Shown piece after piece: positions 5,324-25,987 of a stretch of 26,458 nucleotides of DNA; the stretch's first letter is position 1; each line of letters starts with the position of its first letter. Location of the stretch: NCBI GenBank assembly GCA_023434855.1, contig JAEYSJ010000043.1:1-26458 (forward strand), written 5' to 3'. The position numbers and the translations under genes were made by a program. The DNA comes from Bacillota bacterium (lineage in GTDB: Bacteria; Bacillota_C; Negativicutes; JAEYSJ01). The notes under the pieces were generated by a model that saw nothing but the letters and a program-made list of their open reading frames with translations, made no database searches and was not told where the DNA came from.

Positions 5324-6559
5324 ATGGCCCTATTAAATGAGAACTATTTAAAGCTGCCTGGGAGCTATTTGTTTGCTGAGATTGCACGAAGGGTGGCTGC
5401 TTTTAAAGCTGATCATCCTGAAGCCGATATAATCCGCCTGGGGATCGGCGACGTTACTAAACCTTTGCCGTCGGCCGTAATTAAAGGTCTGCATGCTGCC
5501 GTCGATGAAATGGCGCATGAGGAAACCTTCCGGGGATATGGTCCCGAACAGGGTTATAGTTTTCTCATCCAAAAAATAATTAACTATGATTATGCGCCTT
5601 TAGGCATTGATCTGGCTGAGGATGAAGTATTTATCAGTGACGGCTCAAAAAGCGATGTTGGTAATATCCAGGAAATTTTTGGTATTAACAATAAGGTTGC
5701 AATCACCGATCCGGTCTATCCTGTTTACCTGGATACCAACGTAATGGCCGGCAGGACCGGAGAACTGCAGACTAACGGCATGTTTGCCAATGTAATATAT
5801 ATTCCCTGTAATTCAGAGAACAAGTTTGTTCCGCAATTGCCTCAGGAAAAAGCCGATTTAATATATCTCTGCTTTCCCAATAACCCTACCGGCACCACCA
5901 TTTCCAAAACTGAACTGAAAAAGTGGGTAGATTACGCTAAAGCTAACGGATCGATTATTCTGTATGATGCAGCTTACGAGGCGTATATCCAGGAACCTGA
6001 TATTCCTCATAGTATTTACCAAATAGAAGGCGCAAAAGATGTTGCTATCGAATTCAGGACTTTTTCCAAAAATGCCGGTTTTACGGGAACACGGTGTGCG
6101 TTGACCGTAGTGCCCAAGACAGTCATGGCTTATACTAAAGATGGCAAGGCACATCAATTGAATAAGCTGTGGAACAGGCGGCAGACTACTAAATTCAATG
6201 GTGTGCCGTATATTGTGCAAAAAGGTGCTGAAGCAGTATACACCGAAGATGGACAACGGCAAATAAAGGAACTGGTTAGTTTTTATATGGCAAATGCCAA
6301 GATTATCCGGGAAGGTCTTATCAGCCTGGGACTGGAAGTATTCGGCGGTGTAAATGCTCCGTACATCTGGCTAAAAACGCCAAACGGCATGGATTCCTGG
6401 ACCTTTTTTGACAAACTGTTGACTGAAGCTCATTTGGTAGGCACTCCCGGCGTTGGTTTCGGCCCTTCCGGTCAGGGGTATTTCCGTCTTACCGCTTTCG
6501 GAAAACGGGAAAATACCGAAGAAGCAGTGACTAGATTAAAGACAAAACTAAAATTATAA
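5324..6559 (+). CDS. dapL: LL-diaminopimelate aminotransferase
   Basis: This 411-residue fold-type I PLP enzyme converts tetrahydrodipicolinate directly to LL-diaminopimelate using glutamate, giving the short aminotransferase route to lysine and peptidoglycan. The DapL signature at the N terminus ([16 protein letters not shown], then [12 protein letters not shown]) separates it from ordinary aspartate aminotransferases. PLP contacts are visible: the Schiff-base lysine K249 in [14 protein letters not shown]187 in PNNPTG, and D215 with Y218 in YDAAYEAYI. The ATG follows GAAAGGAG at a good distance. A terminator sits directly after the stop, so this is a single-gene unit; no other dap genes are present here. 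DapL is typical of anaerobic Firmicutes and chlamydia/plant lineages. Confidence 0.97.
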
Positions 6560-10757: not shown

Positions 10758-11354
10758 ATGCGGACGCAGAAATACAGGAAAAGTAAAGTTCTTGAAAGTA
10801 AGTTTGAGAAGCACGATAAAATAGAATGTCCAGACTGCTGCGACTTGCTATTGTTAAGAGATGCAGCTGCCGATGAGCGGAATGCCATAGCCTTTTATTT
10901 GGAGTCTGCATTAGAAGTAGGCTGTCCCAAATTATTTTTCAAAGTAGCCGAAGATGAGATGCAGCATTTTATTGCCATTATGCAGGAAATCTCCCGGCTT
11001 GACCGGGTGCAGGCTGTAAAATTAAAGGAAGCGTGTCTGGATATACTTACACTGCCAAGACCGTTGCCGAGGCAAGAGCTCGACTGGATGGCCCAGGTGC
11101 CGGAAAATGAAAGAGACGATGGGGAAGTCAATCCACCGACCACAAAAGATTTGCCCAGCATTCAGGCTCTTACAAAAGCACTTAGTGATGAATTTCATGC
11201 TGTTAATAAATATCAGACTTATATGGAAAAAGCTGAGGACTGTGAAGTCGCAGAACTATTTTGTAAGCTAATGAATGATGAGAAAGAGCATATTGCCGAA
11301 TTCACTGCAGCTCTGTTTGAAATTACCCATGAACCATTGGTTCCCCAAAGTTGA
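10758..11354 (+). CDS. Ferritin-like diiron protein with two helix-pair repeats
   Basis: This 198-residue protein contains two similar halves, each with a helix bearing a Glu and a helix bearing ExxH. The first half is DERNAIAFY (E40) with E67-x-x-H70. The second is DEFHAVNKY (E145) with E175-x-x-H178. Together they supply the usual ligand set of a four-helix diiron site of the rubrerythrin/ferritin-like superfamily. The long Pro-rich linker between them (about 98-133) is unusual. The N terminus holds a CPDCC cluster (C24-C28) that is too short for a rubredoxin domain. Likely roles are peroxide or oxygen detoxification or iron handling, inferred from the fold. GGAGG lies well placed before the ATG. 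A palindrome upstream suggests specific regulation. Confidence 0.85.
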   Translation: MRTQKYRKSKVLESKFEKHDKIECPDCCDLLLLRDAAADERNAIAFYLESALEVGCPKLFFKVAEDEMQHFIAIMQEISRLDRVQAVKLKEACLDILTLPRPLPRQELDWMAQVPENERDDGEVNPPTTKDLPSIQALTKALSDEFHAVNKYQTYMEKAEDCEVAELFCKLMNDEKEHIAEFTAALFEITHEPLVPQS

Positions 11355-11384
11355 TTGTGCGGTAGTATAACAAAAAAGAAAAAA

Positions 11385-11421
11385 GTTCTTCACATCCGCA
11401 TCATGTTTGAGGGTGAAGAAC
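11385..11421 (+). terminator. Possible weak terminator after the ferritin-like gene
   Basis: GTTCTTCAC (11385-11393) pairs with GTGAAGAAC (11413-11421) around a 19-base loop. Only a short TTTT follows a few bases later. It lies 30 bases after the stop. Confidence 0.35.
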
Positions 11422-14391: not shown

Positions 14392-14490
14392 TAACCGCCA
14401 AGAACGCCGAGGACGCCAAGGGAAACGGCGTGATATTCATCGCACAGGGAAAAAGGATTCCTTGGCGTTCTTGGCGTCCTTGGCGGTTAA
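14392..14490. repeat. Family 1 palindromic repeat, copy R2
   Basis: This is a 99-bp imperfect palindrome with arms of about 31 bases. The left arm is TAACCGCCAAG AACGCCGAG GACGCCAAG, the right arm CTTGGCGTT CTTGGCGTC CTTGGCGGTTAA, so each arm is three 9-mers. The centre contains GGCGTGATATTCATCGCA, which is also found in R3. It lies 43 bases beyond the stop of the minus-strand flavin reductase. Confidence 0.88.
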
Positions 14491-14532
14491 TCGGTATTTT
14501 TCGCACCGTCAAGTGTCAAGCTGCATGTCTTG

Positions 14533-15036
14533 TTATTCGTCTAAATAAGTGGCTACAATTTCGCCGAAGTACATGGTGTGGTAATCGCCGTTGGCGTAGC
14601 AGGCTTTTTGGTATTCGCTGTCAAGCGTATCCGGAGTCATGGCTTGTTTATACACTATTTTGCATTCGTAGTGAAGGTTGCAGCCGGCAATTACAGGCAC
14701 GGATACTTTTTTTCCGGGGGTGGTGCTTAGCCCGGCGACCGCTATTTTATCCATGTCGCGGCCGGATTTAGTGCCACACAGCGCTAAAGCTTCTGTCATG
14801 TCTTTAAAGGGAACGCTTACGGTAAATTCGGTGCTTTTCTCAATCAGATCGTAAGTAAAGCGGGAATACCTGACCAACACCATAAAGATGGGTTTCTGCC
14901 AGATACGGCCAATTGATCCCCAGCCAATAGTCATAGTATTAACCTTGCCATTATGCGCGGTAGTTAAAAATGTTCCCTTTGGCAACGCCTCCATGACTCT
15001 GTCCGCATATTGGCTGTATAATACGTCCTTACTCAT
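14533..15036 (-). CDS. Flavin reductase-like FMN-binding split-barrel protein
   Basis: This 167-residue protein is of the flavin reductase/flavoredoxin family, which binds FMN in a dimeric split barrel. Supporting segments are LPKGTFLTTAHNGKVNTMTIGWG at the N terminus (the typical flavin phosphate region), the KPIFMVLVRYSRFTYDLIEKS stretch (which reads like the family's substrate-facing loop), and the C-terminal YHTMYFGEIVATYLDE. Its natural partner (NAD(P)H, ferredoxin or another protein) cannot be read from the sequence. The ATG at 15036 is chosen because AAGGAG lies 10 bases before it; a TTG at 15045 overlaps that site. The gene is flanked on both sides by copies of the family 1 repeat. 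Confidence 0.88.
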   Translation of the reverse strand: MSKDVLYSQYADRVMEALPKGTFLTTAHNGKVNTMTIGWGSIGRIWQKPIFMVLVRYSRFTYDLIEKSTEFTVSVPFKDMTEALALCGTKSGRDMDKIAVAGLSTTPGKKVSVPVIAGCNLHYECKIVYKQAMTPDTLDSEYQKACYANGDYHTMYFGEIVATYLDE

Positions 15037-15155
15037 TTTTATCAATCTCCTTTACGGATTGAATTCTATCAGATTTAATGTCCAGAAGAAAATTGGTTTT
15101 TCTGCATAATCATGCAGCGTTTCTGTATGATTCGTTGCATTTTGGGAAGCGATAA

Positions 15156-15253
15156 AACCGCCAAGGTCAAGGAAAAAATGGCGTGATACTCATTGCGCCG
15201 GGACAAAGAGACTATAAAAATTCCTTGACGTTCTTGGCGTTCTTGGCGGTTAA
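15156..15253. repeat. Family 1 palindromic repeat, copy R3
   Basis: The element is 98 bp. The left end is AAACCGCCAAGGTCAAGGAA; the right arm is CCTTGACGTT CTTGGCGTT CTTGGCGGTTAA. The centre GGCGTGATACTCATTGCGCC matches R2. It lies 12 bases beyond the serC stop, between serC and the flavin reductase gene on the same strand. Confidence 0.87.
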
Positions 15254-15265
15254 TATTTCTCTTAC

Positions 15266-16363
15266 TTAGCCATTTTTGCGCTGGAACTCGAGCATAAAAT
15301 CTTTAAGTGCCTTACAGCCTGCCAACGTCATGGCGTTGTAAATTGATGCTCTCAGGCCGCCTACTGAGCGGTGTCCTTTCAGGCCTTCCATTCCGGCTTT
15401 AGTAGCTTCGGTTACAAAGGTTTTCTCCAAATCCTCATTAGGCAGGCGGAAGGTGACATTCATTAATGAACGGCTGTCTTTGTCAGCATGGCCGCGGTAA
15501 AAACTGCCGCTGTTATCAATAGTATCATAGATCAGGGAAGCTTTCTCAACGTTGCGTTTTTCCATACCTGCCGAACCACCATTATCCTTGATCCAGCGAA
15601 GCACCAGGTTGACCATATAAACCGAAAATGTCGGAGGTGTATTGTATAATGAGTCATTGGCGGCGTGGGTGTGGTAGCGCAGCATGGTAGGTATATGCTG
15701 CGGATTGCTTTCAGCAAGGTCTTTGCGGATAACAACAACGGTCACACCGGCAGGGCCGAGATTTTTCTGCGCTCCAGCGTAGATTAGGGCAAACTTGGAG
15801 GCATCAAACGGCTTGCACAATATGTCTGAGGACATGTCGGCAAATAAGGGGATATCGCCAAAAGATGGGAAATTGGCCCACTGCGTGCCAAAAATAGTAT
15901 TGTTGGAGGTGAGATGTATATATGCCGGATTAGCACTAAGGTGAATTTCCTCTACTGACGGAATGCGTTTGTAGTTGCCTTCGGCAGTCGTGGCGGCGAT
16001 ATGAGTTTCGCCGCCGAGAATTTTTGCTTCTTTAAGGGCTTTTTCCGACCATGATCCTGTCAGGATATAGTCGGCTGTGCGGCCCGGAGATAGAAAGTTC
16101 ATGGGAATCATGGCGAACTGCGTGCTGGCACCCCCCTGGAGAAACAGCACGCGGTAATCGTCACCAAGGTTTAACAGCTCTTTCATGTTGTTCTCAGCTT
16201 CAGCGTTGACTGCCTCATAGGCTTTGGAACGGTGGCTGATTTCCAAGATGGACATTCCGGTATTATTAAAATTTAGTAGTTCAGCTTGCGCAGCCTGCAG
16301 CACTTCCAGTGGCAGTGTGGCAGGGCCGGCGCTAAAATTGAAAATGCGCTTGGTCACAGGCAT
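15266..16363 (-). CDS. serC: Phosphoserine aminotransferase
   Basis: This 365-residue PLP enzyme interconverts 3-phosphohydroxypyruvate and O-phosphoserine in serine synthesis, and can also serve vitamin B6 synthesis. The family opening IFNFSAGPATLPLEVL is present. PLP-binding positions include GGAS (77-80) and the Schiff-base lysine K200 in YAGAQKNLGPAG, and the C-terminal GHRSVGGLRASIYNA is typical. The start is uncertain by two codons: ATG at 16363 lies close to GGGGGG, while a GTG at 16357 gives better spacing and the usual MTKR opening. serA is not next to it. On the other strand, 263 bases upstream, begins the DUF1015 and LarA-like gene pair, so the two transcripts share a regulatory region. 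Confidence 0.96.
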   Translation of the reverse strand: MPVTKRIFNFSAGPATLPLEVLQAAQAELLNFNNTGMSILEISHRSKAYEAVNAEAENNMKELLNLGDDYRVLFLQGGASTQFAMIPMNFLSPGRTADYILTGSWSEKALKEAKILGGETHIAATTAEGNYKRIPSVEEIHLSANPAYIHLTSNNTIFGTQWANFPSFGDIPLFADMSSDILCKPFDASKFALIYAGAQKNLGPAGVTVVVIRKDLAESNPQHIPTMLRYHTHAANDSLYNTPPTFSVYMVNLVLRWIKDNGGSAGMEKRNVEKASLIYDTIDNSGSFYRGHADKDSRSLMNVTFRLPNEDLEKTFVTEATKAGMEGLKGHRSVGGLRASIYNAMTLAGCKALKDFMLEFQRKNG

Positions 16364-16484
16364 TACCCCCCAGATATTATTGCAATTGTTAGTTTTTACC
16401 GTTTTTACGATAATTAATTATAAATAATAACACCATCATACGTATTTGTGAAGACAAAAAATATGAAAATATATTTTTTTCTGT

Positions 16485-16519
16485 AAGTCAAGTGTGTTTG
16501 CTCAAAATACACTTGACTT
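16485..16519. promoter_or_regulatory. 11-bp inverted repeat overlapping the DUF1015 promoter, probable operator
   Basis: AAGTCAAGTGT (16485-16495) and its perfect inverse ACACTTGACTT (16509-16519) are separated by 13 bases that hold a further TTT/AAA pair. The right arm covers the whole -35 box (16513-16518). The lack of a T run in either direction argues against a terminator. It sits between divergent serC and the DUF1015 gene. Confidence 0.7.
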
Positions 16520-16541
16520 TGCGAGACGGATAAAATATAAT
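16513..16541 (+). promoter_or_regulatory. Near-consensus sigma-A promoter for the DUF1015 gene
   Basis: TTGACT (16513-16518), a 17-base spacer and a perfect TATAAT (16536-16541). Transcription should begin near 16548. Confidence 0.85.
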
Positions 16542-16556
16542 CAAAAAGAAAATTAG

Positions 16557-16585
16557 TCTCGTCCCAGTTTTGGGGCGGGATTTTT
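16557..16585 (+). terminator. Terminator-like hairpin at the 5' end of the DUF1015 transcript
   Basis: TCTCGTCCCA (16557-16566) pairs with TGGGGCGGGA (16571-16580), giving 10 pairs including two G-T, with a 4-base loop and a TTTTT run. It begins only about 10 bases after the expected transcription start and ends about 40 bases before the start codon, so it would act as an attenuator or as a 5'-stabilising hairpin. Confidence 0.6.
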
Positions 16586-16625
16586 AATTTAGCGATTGTA
16601 CAGCTAAAATGAGGAGGAGTATTCA

Positions 16626-17867
16626 ATGGCTGTTGTTAAGCCTTTCCGTGGTTTGCGACCTGTTCCGGAATTGGCCGCTAAGGTTGCTTCATTGCCCTAT
16701 GATGTGATGGATTCTGATGAAGCAAGGTGTATTACCGAAAAAAATCCGTATAGTTTTTTGCGGGTAACCAAGTCTGAAGTCGATCTTGCCTCCGGCGTGG
16801 ACACTCATTCACCGGAAGTGTATGCCAAGGCTGCAGAAAATCTGCGTAAGTTTATTGAAAATAATACTCTTAAGCAGGATGAAAAAAACTGTTTCTATAT
16901 ATATAAACAACAAATGGGTGAACATATTCAGATTGGTTTAGTAGCCACCGCTTCTGTGGAAGAATATAATGGCAATATTATAAAAAAGCATGAACTGACC
17001 AGGCCGGATAAAGAACAGGACCGGGTGGAGCATATAACCGCCACTCAGGCCCAGACCGGTGCAGTATTTCTTACTTATAAAGCCGACGCCGCAGTTAATT
17101 CCATATTGGCAAGATGTATGCAGCAGGAGCCTGTATATGATTTTATGTCAGAAGATGGCATTATCCATACATTGTATCTGGTGGCCAAAAATGAAGAAAT
17201 TACAGCCATTGAGCAGGTGTTCAACAAAATTGACGTATTATATATCGCCGACGGTCATCACCGTTCCGCTGCCGCCGCCCGGGTATGTGCAGATTACTGC
17301 CAAAATAACCCGGGTCATACCGGCGAAGAAGAGTATAATCGTTTTTTGGCAGTAATCTTTCCACATAATATGATGAAAATTATGGATTATAACCGGGTTG
17401 TAACTGATTTAAACGCGCTTACTGCTGAAAATTTCCTGGAAGCAGTGCAGGTGAATTTCACTATTGAAAAACATTCTGCAGGTGCCTATAAACCGGGACA
17501 GGCTCACACCTTTGGTATGTATCTTAATGGCACCTGGTACAAGCTGACCGCCAAATCCGGTAGTTTCAACGAGCAAAATACGTTGGACAAGCTCGATGTG
17601 AACATTTTGCAAAATAATCTTTTAAAACCCATTTTAGGAATTACCGATCCTCGCACCGACAAAAGAATAAACTTCGTGGGCGGCATCAGGGGTATGCAAG
17701 AATTGGAAAGACTTGTTGATAGCAGCAAATATACTGTTGCGTTTTCCTTGTTTCCTACATCCATTGAAGAACTTATGGACATTGCTGATGCCGGAGAGAT
17801 TATGCCGCCAAAGTCTACCTGGTTTGAGCCTAAGCTCCGGGATGCTATGGTGGTGCATTTGATTTAA
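16626..17867 (+). CDS. DUF1015 family protein with ADGHHR motif
   Basis: This 413-residue protein matches the DUF1015 family in length and motifs. These are the opening FRGLRPVPELAAKVASLPYDV (7-27), KHELTRPDKEQDR (121-133), YIADGHHRSAAAARV (206-220) and the end PPKSTWFEPKLRD (394-406). It has no signal peptide or membrane segment. The family is uncharacterised to my knowledge. The ADGHHR box resembles the nucleotide-binding motif of ParB/sulfiredoxin-fold enzymes, including the archaeal free serine kinase SerK; together with divergent serC this hints at serine or phosphoserine chemistry, but that is inference. AGGAGGAG precedes the ATG. The LarA-like gene follows after 22 bases and is surely co-transcribed. 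Confidence 0.92.
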   Translation: MAVVKPFRGLRPVPELAAKVASLPYDVMDSDEARCITEKNPYSFLRVTKSEVDLASGVDTHSPEVYAKAAENLRKFIENNTLKQDEKNCFYIYKQQMGEHIQIGLVATASVEEYNGNIIKKHELTRPDKEQDRVEHITATQAQTGAVFLTYKADAAVNSILARCMQQEPVYDFMSEDGIIHTLYLVAKNEEITAIEQVFNKIDVLYIADGHHRSAAAARVCADYCQNNPGHTGEEEYNRFLAVIFPHNMMKIMDYNRVVTDLNALTAENFLEAVQVNFTIEKHSAGAYKPGQAHTFGMYLNGTWYKLTAKSGSFNEQNTLDKLDVNILQNNLLKPILGITDPRTDKRINFVGGIRGMQELERLVDSSKYTVAFSLFPTSIEELMDIADAGEIMPPKSTWFEPKLRDAMVVHLI

Positions 17868-17889
17868 GATTGTCCGGGGGTGACATTAA

Positions 17890-19188
17890 TTGTTAAAGGA
17901 ATACGCTTTTGGATTCGGTGACACTGAATTCAGGACTAATTTGCCTCAAGACCGTGTAATCAATGTTGTGGAAGGCAAAGAGTGTAAACCGGTGACTAAT
18001 ATCGAAGCTGCGGTAAAGGAAGCCTTAAACAATCCTATTGATTCGCTGCCGCTTAGGGAGCTCGTTAAAAAAGGTGATAGGGTTACGATTATCGCCAGCG
18101 ATATTACCCGCCGATGGGTACGGTATGATTTATTTTTGCCTGCTTTATTAAATGAATTAAATACCGCCGGTATTCCGGACAAAGACATTACTCTGATAAT
18201 CGGGCTGGGGTCACACCGTTATAATACCGGTAAGGAAAATATAATCAACTTTGGACAGCAGGTGGTGGACCGGGTTTCAATTAAGCAGAGTCATGCTCCG
18301 GTCAAAGAAGATTTCGTATATGTCGGCCGGACTTCCCGCGGACATGATGCTTATATCAATAAACATGTTGCCGGTGCAGACAAAGTCATCCTTACCGGCG
18401 GAATTGTATACCATCTGATGGCCGGCTTCGGCGGTGGGCGAAAATCAATTATGCCTGGCATTTCAGGCTATGCCAGCATTCAGGCTAATCATAGCCTGTG
18501 TCTCCATGAAGAAGTGGGAAAAGGGCTGAGTCCCAATTGTGTTTCCGGCAAGCTGGAAAGCAATGCCATGCATGAAGATATGACGGAAGTGGCCGAAATG
18601 CTAAAACCGGCCTTTTTACTTAATGCCGTATTTACACCTGACGGCAAGTTCGCCCGGTTTGTTGCCGGCCATTGGTATAAAGCCTGGTTGGAAGGGACAA
18701 ATATTGTAAAGGAAATATTCGGTGTTTCGGTTAACGGCAAAGCGGACTTAGTAATAGCCTCGGCCGGCGGTTTTCCGAAAGATATTAATTTGTATCAAGG
18801 CGCAAAAGCGCTGGATAATGCGTATATGGCTGTCAATGATAACGGCGTAGTCATTTTATTGCTGGAATGCCGGGATATTATGGAACCTCCTGATTTCAGT
18901 GCCTGGTTTAAATATGAATCCTTGTATGAGCGTGAACTGGCCTTGCGCAAGGCTTTTACGGTGCCGGGGTTTATTGCATTAATGATTGGTTACAGGGCAA
19001 AGAAGCTGCCACATATTGTGGTTTCACTGCCCAAAAACAAAGAGTTTATTGAGAAAGCCGGCATGATTTTCGCTGCCAGTTTGGAAGAAGCTATGGCCAT
19101 TGCTGAGCAGAAATTAGGCCATACAGATTATAGCATAAATGTAATGGCCCATGCATCGAGTACTGTTCCGCTGGAAAACGGACAATAA
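17890..19188 (+). CDS. LarA-like (nickel-pincer lactate racemase family) protein
   Basis: This 432-residue protein is a homologue of LarA, the lactate racemase that uses a nickel-pincer nucleotide. Residues corresponding to the catalytic and metal-binding set of Lactobacillus LarA are all in register: H109 in GLGSHR, H175 and K185 in VYHLMAGFGGGRKS, H201 in ANH, and Y302 with K306 in LYQGAK. It should therefore be able to hold the cofactor and catalyse a hydride-transfer racemisation or epimerisation. The substrate may well not be lactate, as LarA homologues vary. The cofactor genes larB, larC and larE are not in the window. The TTG start follows GGGGGTG. It is the second gene of the unit with DUF1015 and ends at a large hairpin. 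Confidence 0.9.
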   Translation: MLKEYAFGFGDTEFRTNLPQDRVINVVEGKECKPVTNIEAAVKEALNNPIDSLPLRELVKKGDRVTIIASDITRRWVRYDLFLPALLNELNTAGIPDKDITLIIGLGSHRYNTGKENIINFGQQVVDRVSIKQSHAPVKEDFVYVGRTSRGHDAYINKHVAGADKVILTGGIVYHLMAGFGGGRKSIMPGISGYASIQANHSLCLHEEVGKGLSPNCVSGKLESNAMHEDMTEVAEMLKPAFLLNAVFTPDGKFARFVAGHWYKAWLEGTNIVKEIFGVSVNGKADLVIASAGGFPKDINLYQGAKALDNAYMAVNDNGVVILLLECRDIMEPPDFSAWFKYESLYERELALRKAFTVPGFIALMIGYRAKKLPHIVVSLPKNKEFIEKAGMIFAASLEEAMAIAEQKLGHTDYSINVMAHASSTVPLENGQ

Positions 19189-19258
19189 ATTGTATCGGGG
19201 CGCACAAAAACCAGCCGAAAAGCAGCATTTGTAATTTTAAAAAGTAAAATATAAGATT

Positions 19259-19343
19259 AAAGCGCAAGCTTTTGCACCTGAGAATTAAAATGGACCTCGT
19301 ATCAAGGCCATTTTAAATAGTGCAAGCTTGCGCTTTCTTTTTT
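19259..19343. terminator. Long two-part hairpin terminator between convergent genes
   Basis: The outer stem AAAGCGCAAGCTT...GCAC pairs with GTGCAAGCTTGCGCTTT (ending 19336), with two bulged T residues. An inner stem TTAAAATGG/CCATTTTAA is perfect. A T run follows on the plus strand. It separates the LarA-like gene from the minus-strand zinc-ribbon gene. Confidence 0.85.
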
Positions 19344-19358
19344 GTATGTATTCGGGGA

Positions 19359-19586
19359 CTATTTATTGATTTTCTTGGGCAGCCATTGTTTTTTATCTGT
19401 ATTGCATTCACAGCAGCCGTACAGGTCAGTGATGGTCTTGCCGACATTTTGATAAGCAGTAAGAATATCAGGTGACGGAGTCTGACCACACATACAGCAT
19501 TTAAGAGACTTCGGATTTGTGGCTAAGTCTTCATGCGAAAAATCAAAACTGTGTTGGCAAGTAGGACATTCGAAAGTGAATTTCAT
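19359..19586 (-). CDS. Small zinc-ribbon-like protein
   Basis: This 75-residue protein is cysteine-rich. C7-x-x-C10 (ECPTC) with C30, C31 and C33 (KCCMCG) forms a probable zinc ribbon, and a third cluster C58, C59, C61 (GCCEC) lies near the basic C terminus. No named family is recognised. AAAGGAGATGA lies before the ATG. It is divergent from the aldo/keto reductase, with 118 bases between them, and convergent with the LarA-like gene. Metal binding is likely; DNA, RNA or protein binding are equally possible roles. Confidence 0.75.
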   Translation of the reverse strand: MKFTFECPTCQHSFDFSHEDLATNPKSLKCCMCGQTPSPDILTAYQNVGKTITDLYGCCECNTDKKQWLPKKINK

Positions 19587-19704
19587 AGATAATCATCTCC
19601 TTTTTAGAAATAATACTTTCTTAATATATATTATATATTGTACGAGCAGGATTTACCAGCTTTCAGGGCAAAATATTAATGTACCACAAGGAGGTATTGG
19701 TATA

Positions 19705-24922: not shown

Positions 24923-24945
24923 CTATACAAATGGAATATTTGGAA

Positions 24946-25126
24946 TAGGTGCCCGGTTCGGGCTTAATAGGGAAGTTTGGTGTAAATCCAGCACGGTCCC
25001 GCCGCTGTAATGGGGAGCGGCCTGCAATAAGCCACTGAAGCAGCAATGCTTTGGGAAGGCGCAGGTGCGTGATGATCCTAAGTCAGAAGAACTGCCTGTT
25101 CAACAATCACCGCTGTAACCCACGAG
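24946..25126 (+). ncRNA. Cobalamin (B12) riboswitch aptamer
   Basis: The conserved elements of the cobalamin aptamer occur in order: the opening TAGGTGCC, the GGGAAGTTTGGTGTAAATCC segment, CACGGTCCCGCCGCTGTAA, then GCCACTG and GGGAAGGCGCAGG, and finally the B12 box as AGTCAGAAGAACTGCC (25081-25096). It controls the cbiMN cobalt transporter genes downstream, turning them off when adenosyl- or related cobalamin is plentiful. The exact 3' boundary is approximate. Confidence 0.93.
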
Positions 25127-25234: not shown

Positions 25235-25987
25235 GTGAAAAAGATAGTTATGTTTATAGGTTACTTCATTGCAGTGGGTGCATTATTGCCGTCAATTGCT
25301 CAGGCGATGCACATAATGGAAGGCTTTCTACCGCAAGAATATGCACTGGGATGGCTAATAGCGGTAATTCCCTTTCTGGTAGTGGGAGTAAGGCGCATTA
25401 GGATTACCCTGAAAAATTATCCTGAGCGAAAAATGTTTCTCGGGCTGGCGGCTGCCTTTATTTTTGTGCTGTCGGCTCTTAAGATACCTTCGGTTACCGG
25501 GTCCAGTTCCCATGCCACCGGTGTAGGGTTAAGCGCTGTTTTGTTTGGTCCGGCGGTGTCATCGGTGTTGAGCGGAATTGTATTGGTATTTCAGGCATTA
25601 CTGTTGGCTCATGGCGGTATTACCACCTGGGGGGCCAATACTTTTTCCATGGGTGTTGCCGGAGCTTTTGTTGCCTGGGGGTTATTTAAGGTTGCCCGGC
25701 TTTGCGGGTTGTCGGAACAAGTTGCAGTCTTTTTGGCCGCTACCTTTGGAGATTGGGTTACTTATATGGTAACTGCCGGACAATTAGCGCTGGCTTTTCC
25801 TGACACAATAGGCGGGTTTTGGGCATCATATACCAAATTCCTTGGCGTTTTTGCCATAACCCAGCTGCCGCTGGCTGTTAGTGAAGGTTTATTGAGTGTT
25901 GTGGTTTATAACGCCTTACTCCGTTATAGCGAACAGGGGCTTATAAATACATGGTGGAAAAACGGGGGAACTACCCATGAAAAATAA
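25235..25987 (+). CDS. cbiM: Cobalt ECF transporter substrate-binding membrane protein CbiM
   Basis: This 250-residue integral membrane protein is the cobalt-binding S component of the ECF-type importer CbiMNQO, feeding corrinoid synthesis. A cleavable signal peptide ends at IAQA (21-24), exposing the conserved mature N terminus M25-H26-I-M-E, whose amino group and histidine bind the metal. Later family blocks are TGSSSHATGVGLSAVLFGPA (88-107) and LLAHGGITTWGANTFSMG (122-139). The GTG start follows GGGAGAAGG. It lies behind the cobalamin riboswitch and overlaps cbiN by 11 bases, indicating translational coupling. Confidence 0.96.
   Translation: MKKIVMFIGYFIAVGALLPSIAQAMHIMEGFLPQEYALGWLIAVIPFLVVGVRRIRITLKNYPERKMFLGLAAAFIFVLSALKIPSVTGSSSHATGVGLSAVLFGPAVSSVLSGIVLVFQALLLAHGGITTWGANTFSMGVAGAFVAWGLFKVARLCGLSEQVAVFLAATFGDWVTYMVTAGQLALAFPDTIGGFWASYTKFLGVFAITQLPLAVSEGLLSVVVYNALLRYSEQGLINTWWKNGGTTHEK

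Follow-up and report, generated by a model that had tools for sequence, protein, structure and literature searches.

DUF1015, a protein of serine operons with a predicted ParB/Srx fold, as a candidate serine/phosphoserine phosphotransferase in Negativicutes

On a contig of a Bacillota bacterium of the class Negativicutes (JAEYSJ010000043.1, 26,458 nt, in the following called the window) the gene serC lies divergent from genes for a DUF1015 protein and a LarA homologue, which raises the question of what DUF1015, named by Pfam as a family with unknown function (PF06245), does beside a gene of serine synthesis. The first-pass annotation of this DNA had recognized the three genes and their strands, which is borne out by matches to TIGR01364, PF06245 and NF052525 (Table 1), and it had proposed that DUF1015 and LarA form a serine-linked pair. 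The PF06245 match covers positions 1–324 of the 325 in the profile (378.4 bits, gathering cut-off 25.8, E = 3.2e-113), and the nearest DUF1015 proteins among the matches listed stand at 81% (unnamed), 75% (Firmicutes bacterium) and 75% (Methylomusa anaerophila). The larA gene starts 22 nt 3' of the DUF1015 stop codon and both genes are apparently on one transcript; the gap between serC and DUF1015 (16364–16625) measures 262 nt. On balance we favour the view that DUF1015 is a serine-operon enzyme that stands in for the phosphatase SerB and moves phosphate between O-phosphoserine and an acceptor.

Table 1. Features of the serC–DUF1015–larA locus (positions in the window) and shortened DUF1015 genes of relatives (positions in the loci named)
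Feature	Position	Strand	Remarks
serC, phosphoserine aminotransferase	15266–16363	-	365 aa; TIGR01364 519.9 bits (cut-off 443.6); NF003764 520.6 bits
Inverted repeat, 15-nt arms and 5-nt spacer	16485–16499 / 16505–16519	.	arms 93% complementary; folding z -7.7
Promoter of the DUF1015-larA unit, TTGACT-17-TATAAT	16513–16541	+	11/12 matches; sigma-70-type
Terminator hairpin and T-run	16555–16588 (hairpin 16555–16582)	+	-18.8 kcal/mol, z -5.5
RBS-like GAGGAGGAG 5' of DUF1015	16611–16619	+	read from sequence
DUF1015 protein (PF06245)	16626–17867	+	413 aa; predicted SerK/SbnI-type serine/phosphoserine phosphotransferase
larA, LarAH10-family nickel-pincer 2-hydroxyacid racemase	17890–19188	+	TTG start; NF052525 NPN_LarAH10 643.9 bits (cut-off 540)
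Terminator-like hairpin, may close the DUF1015-larA unit	19319–19334	+	
Shortened DUF1015, open frame between serA and serC	L190 5437–6186; L191 6314–7063; L193 7307–8056		249 aa

We analyzed the neighbourhood of DUF1015 in a wide set, composed of the best 80 of 94 loci from many phyla found in a genome-collection scan, and in 43 of the 77 Negativicutes genomes with a DUF1015 match (300 genomes in total; a few of the 77 matches are fragments or remnants). The labels SerA and SerC of neighbours rest on tblastn at 1e-15; of two SerA-like proteins compared with NCBIfam, the one of locus L003 was over the cut-off and the shorter one of L024 under it. Some of the 80 loci end near DUF1015, and the neighbour counts are lower bounds. 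A SerA-like gene on the same strand within 3 kb was observed in 32 of the 80 loci, on the 5' side in 30 of these, and SerA, SerC or an SPT-like class-V aminotransferase in 34. Among the 43 Negativicutes genomes, SerA was found on the same strand in 29, SerC in 27 and either of them in 38, and many relatives have serA directly 5' of DUF1015. The five genomes with neither gene within 3 kb are G056 and G030, the two nearest to the window, and G127, G147 and G050. A divergent full-length SerA, 43–46% identical to Pelosinus SerA, is encoded elsewhere in G056, G127, G147 and G050, while G030 has a 61% SerA about 15 kb off on the same contig and a 45% SerA elsewhere; Methylomusa, the nearest relative with a genus name, likewise encodes a divergent SerA (46%) elsewhere. 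As a separate observation, Cloacimonadota loci (L009, L013, L016–L019, L021 and others) keep DUF1015 between a PepM18-like peptidase and RimO-like/TrpS-like genes; most of these loci have no serA or serC close by. In L149 (9399–10634 / 11225–11386) a partial second DUF1015 N-terminus (about 55 residues, 91–93% identical) immediately precedes the full gene, close to masked sequence.

The leaders 5' of serA in relatives resemble T-boxes, with Rfam T-box scores of 71.6–133.1 bits in all seven loci searched (eight were fetched). Because six of the seven score 71.6–91.4 bits, under the gathering cut-off of 93, the Rfam gathering scan missed the Negativicutes T-boxes. In a pattern survey of 35 genomes and the window (8 of the 43 genomes were omitted, seven for flanks of 1.5 kb and one for a contig start near serA) the T-box element was found in 20 of 21 serA-first operons (serA-DUF1015), and the specifier was TCC, a serine codon, in 17 of the 17 specifiers read in this set. 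A covariance model built from eight leaders, which themselves match by construction, gave 25 strong matches (114–200 bits) among 55 sources, along with 35.5 bits for L177. Among the strong matches are Methylomusa serC (L194), Acetonema serS (L151) and an aminotransferase-serA-DUF1015 operon of Clostridium bornimense (L039), which has a TCC specifier. Two T-box antiterminator/terminator elements about 80–85 nt apart are present in 6 of the 21 serA-first leaders (L002, L155, L156, L159, L160 and L164). A glycine riboswitch is described 5' of COG4198 genes in metagenomes in a passage of PMC2211319; our scans gave none, at gathering in 21 loci and to E = 0.01 in three of these.

The window itself departs from this plan. 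L001 (70%) has serC(-), serA(+) and DUF1015(+) in this order, followed by downstream genes as in the window, and compared to this plan the window has serA missing and larA added. Neither the list of open reading frames nor tblastn with SerA queries revealed a serA in the window. The strong promoter seen in the first-pass annotation between serC and DUF1015 stood up, as TTGACT-17-TATAAT is the top-scoring site of 14400–19700 (27 sites there versus 11.4 in shuffles), and it is common to the serA-DUF1015 promoter of the relatives (87% identical over 47 nt to the sequence 5' of serA in L001). Directly 3' of the promoter we observed the terminator hairpin, which was absent from the first-pass annotation and which aligns with the 3' end of the relatives' serine T-box leader. 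Compared with four relatives, promoter and terminator are retained in the window leader, whereas about 200 nt or more between them, containing the T-box sensor, are missing. No T-box was detected in the window with the covariance model to E = 0.1 or with Rfam to E = 10; the 24 Rfam matches of the window leader at E ≤ 10 are all sub-gathering (best IMES-3, 26.7 of 55 bits, E = 0.002) and none is a T-box. A riboswitch in the leader was rejected, since Rfam at gathering gave only a cobalamin riboswitch (24930–25113) in the window. The locus is therefore a derived one, in which T-box sensor and serA are absent and the promoter is fused to the terminator, in line with the earlier remark that serA is not adjacent and the usual serine operon is broken or replaced. 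Because the sensor is absent here and widespread in relatives, the change was probably a loss in the lineage of the window. The palindrome which had been called operator-like exists as a 15-nt inverted repeat, and its right half overlaps the -35 element of the promoter. Because the right half alone is kept in the alignment of the four relatives, an operator role is doubtful, and a conserved operator at this palindrome was rejected, since the left arm is not kept.

The predicted structure of the DUF1015 protein (pLDDT 95.5) has, by structure comparison, the ParB/Srx-type serine-kinase fold of SerK and SbnI. SerK is the archaeal ADP-dependent free serine kinase (TK0378 and relatives; PDB 1vk1, 5x0b/e/g/j/k), with E30 as catalytic glutamate according to the PDB titles; it is 10–15% identical to DUF1015, which has about 90 additional N-terminal residues. 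Unlike SerK, DUF1015, with a predicted activity, occurs in serine T-box operons of Negativicutes. The staphylococcal ParB-type serine kinase SbnI (PDB 5uje, 5ujd, 6nr6) matches the model as well, but serves siderophore synthesis, going by a title cited in PMC12704722, whereas DUF1015 is found in serine operons. Across 62 DUF1015 sequences of many phyla 58 columns are invariant, including HExTRxxKExDR and DGHHR, and H122-E123, R126, K129, E130 and D209-GHHR-213 are among the invariant residues. The ParB relation of DUF1015 is already known in part, because the ParB-CTPase fold survey of 2025 (PMC12704722) lists 'DU1015' as a domain fused to the fold, with SerK in the same tree, and because one member bears the database name 'SpoOJ/ParA/ParB/repB family protein'; the available text of that survey does not assign DUF1015 a function, connect it to serine or describe its operons. 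A serine role for the family (PF06245, COG4198) was not found in the literature searched, supplements and preprints lying outside this search, and may be new.

Next, we compared the distribution of DUF1015 to that of the enzymes of the pathway. SerC is over its cut-off in 234 of the 300 Negativicutes genomes and SerB in none of the 300, of which 298 give weaker HAD matches to its model (at most 9 candidates per genome were scored here and at most 7 in Bacteroidota). Of 49 DUF1015 genomes outside the Negativicutes, drawn from the 80 wide-set loci, one has SerB over the cut-off and 43 have low-scoring HAD matches. Within the Negativicutes, 31 genomes have SerB-like matches of at least 50 bits, all sub-cut-off, and show zero overlap with the 77 DUF1015 genomes (p = 1e-4, ignoring kinship). 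Thus DUF1015 accompanies SerA and SerC in genomes mostly without SerB, yet it is not mutually exclusive with SerB. The phosphoserine phosphatases SerB1–SerB4 (HAD and histidine-phosphatase families) have the same proposed pathway step and operon position as DUF1015 and are unrelated to it. The seen part of PMC9026213 reports 450 gut genomes with SerA and SerC and none of the four SerB types, and DUF1015 is not among the SerB substitutes named there; Clostridium perfringens, in an excerpt of PMC7311316, grows without serine and has low-confidence SerB candidates only.

The genes, the fold match, the neighbourhoods, the T-box leaders and the absence of the sensor were computed, while the substrate, direction and catalytic residues of DUF1015 are inferred. 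Taken together, operon, serine T-box and fold suggest that DUF1015 is a serine/phosphoserine phosphotransferase in serine synthesis. With its SerK/SbnI fold and the N-terminal addition it would transfer phosphate from or to O-phosphoserine. In the operon serA-DUF1015-serC, SerA would convert 3-phosphoglycerate to phosphohydroxypyruvate, SerC would form phosphoserine and DUF1015, replacing SerB, would release serine, with water, phosphate (giving pyrophosphate) or a nucleotide as candidate acceptors. In the Negativicutes relatives the serine T-box would turn the operon on when charged tRNA-Ser is low; in the window this control would have disappeared with the sensor and serA, leaving the fused promoter-terminator and an unrelated LarAH10 gene 3' of DUF1015. 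Since the T-box points to the making of serine, hydrolysis of phosphoserine or phosphate transfer to a low-energy acceptor such as phosphate would be the expected reaction. The more specific version, in which DUF1015 is a serine-kinase-fold enzyme working in reverse, conserves the phosphoserine phosphate in pyrophosphate or a nucleotide and fills the phosphatase gap of anaerobic Firmicutes and other phyla, is possible but tentative.

A number of observations weigh against the phosphotransferase assignment. Neither DUF1015 nor SerB over the cut-off is present in at least 157 of the 234 Negativicutes with SerC, from which it follows that solutions other than DUF1015 exist. In 395 Bacteroidota genomes (DUF1015 in 330, SerB in 108; both in 90, DUF1015 only in 240, SerB only in 18, neither in 47) the two are independent (Fisher p = 1.0), so that DUF1015 is no simple SerB substitute there and a complementarity with SerB in this phylum was rejected. 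The T-box was found in just 1 of 14 DUF1015-first operons of Negativicutes, and by the covariance model 11 of 12 loci outside the Negativicutes have none, L039 being the exception. Of the 80 wide-set loci, 29 have the Cloacimonadota-type context (PepM18, RimO-like and TrpS genes, named by eye) and 18 neither this nor a serine context. No SerK or SbnI chain was detected in the PDB at E ≤ 10 with the single protein or with a 62-sequence profile, and because of this DUF1015 is regarded as working alike and not filed under SerK; its invariant HE and DGHHR residues are candidates for the catalytic ones. The known SerK and SbnI enzymes are described as kinases (serine to phosphoserine), and their reversal with ATP formation is energetically unfavourable. 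Finally, serA and serC flank a shortened DUF1015 in four genomes, in which no full copy was found. In the three shortened forms that were aligned (249 aa) the HE stretch is gone, DGHHR has become AGAHL and about 145 C-terminal residues are lost, which suggests that catalytic DUF1015 is dispensable in some lineages; T-box elements are still present 5' of serA in L190, L191 and L193. A minimal kinase was considered for these proteins and rejected, as the motifs are lost and they are hence remnants.

Some of these points suit a true serine kinase, which would channel serine to 3-phosphoglycerate by reversed SerC and SerA, or, like SerK in Thermococcus, provide the phosphoserine from which cysteine is made. 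The fold match and the co-occurrence of SerB with DUF1015 in Bacteroidota agree with it, and an available section of Makino et al. (PMC5120207) proposes SerK-dependent serine assimilation, with serK lying close to genes for 3-PGDH and aminotransferases in Desulfurococcales. However, the T-box in front of nearly all Negativicutes serA-DUF1015 operons would switch them on at low seryl-tRNA, that is, for making serine, and a kinase would leave the Negativicutes, all lacking SerB over the cut-off, without a known last step; we therefore consider a kinase rather unlikely. We consider it improbable that DUF1015 assists or regulates SerA and SerC without being an enzyme itself, for example as a nucleotide-sensing subunit, while promiscuous HAD phosphatases hydrolyse phosphoserine. 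The low-scoring HAD matches inside and outside the Negativicutes would provide such phosphatases, the motif-less shortened DUF1015 is kept between serA and serC, and the ParB-type fold is frequently a nucleotide switch, as a passage of PMC12704722 puts it. Against this, the 58 invariant columns with their two motifs, shared across many phyla, fit an enzyme, and the five Negativicutes genomes retain DUF1015 without serA or serC nearby.

The first-pass proposal of one DUF1015-LarA pathway for a serine-derived hydroxy acid held for DUF1015, through its serA and serC neighbours, the T-box leaders and the kinase fold, and failed for LarA. By the curated cut-off the window larA is a LarAH10 member, and its motifs GSHR, YHLMAGFGGGRK and NLYQGAK align with LarA structures at the positions of the catalytic His and the NPN-lysine; we take the residues of these motifs to have the corresponding catalytic roles. 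The adjacency in the window speaks for a joint pathway, as does a weak glycerate racemase activity of Megasphaera LarAH10 in the seen text of PMC11770544. In a survey of the three families, however, their triple association was not conserved, while that of DUF1015 with serA and serC holds: a LarA gene within 3 kb of DUF1015 was seen in none of the 80 wide-set loci (some with short flanks) and in 1 of the 43 Negativicutes, there as a 32%-identical paralogue 2.5 kb off (L148), close to a gene whose product has galactarate/altronate dehydratase domains. The LarAH10 orthologues in Pelosinus are placed elsewhere and adjoin an MFS transporter; an MFS-type transporter directly adjoins the gene in 8 of the 11 LarAH10 orthologue loci listed and lies about 430 nt off in a ninth (L168). 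A Pfam check covered three of these transporters, and one is nearest, sub-cut-off, to the D-galactonate transporter subfamily. In addition, characterized LarAH10-type enzymes prefer hydrophobic 2-hydroxy acids and gluconate/mannonate in the parts seen of PMC11770544 and PMC7583248. The neighbourhood survey and the context of the orthologues led us to reject LarA as a serine-pathway partner, and a shared pathway is very improbable. Among the hydrophobic 2-hydroxyacid racemases of the LarAH10 type (NF052525) the window larA is unusual just in its position 3' of DUF1015, which we take as a recent rearrangement and larA as a chance newcomer. T-box elements (GGGTGGTACCGCG) were also noticed about 1.1 kb 5' of distant LarA paralogues (L086:395, L116:389).

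Elsewhere in the window, 5324–6559 encodes an LL-diaminopimelate aminotransferase of the TIGR03542 (DAPAT_plant) type (617 bits), and the cobalamin riboswitch (112.3 bits) lies 5' of a gene at 25235–25987, presumably, by eye, for a CbiM-type cobalt transporter component. A plasmid search with the locus gave no match.

Many anaerobes have no assigned last step of serine synthesis, and DUF1015, which is abundant in Bacteroidota and Negativicutes, may be that step. As fold, operon and T-box give DUF1015 one substrate pair, both this gap in the pathway and a large family of unknown function become experimentally answerable.

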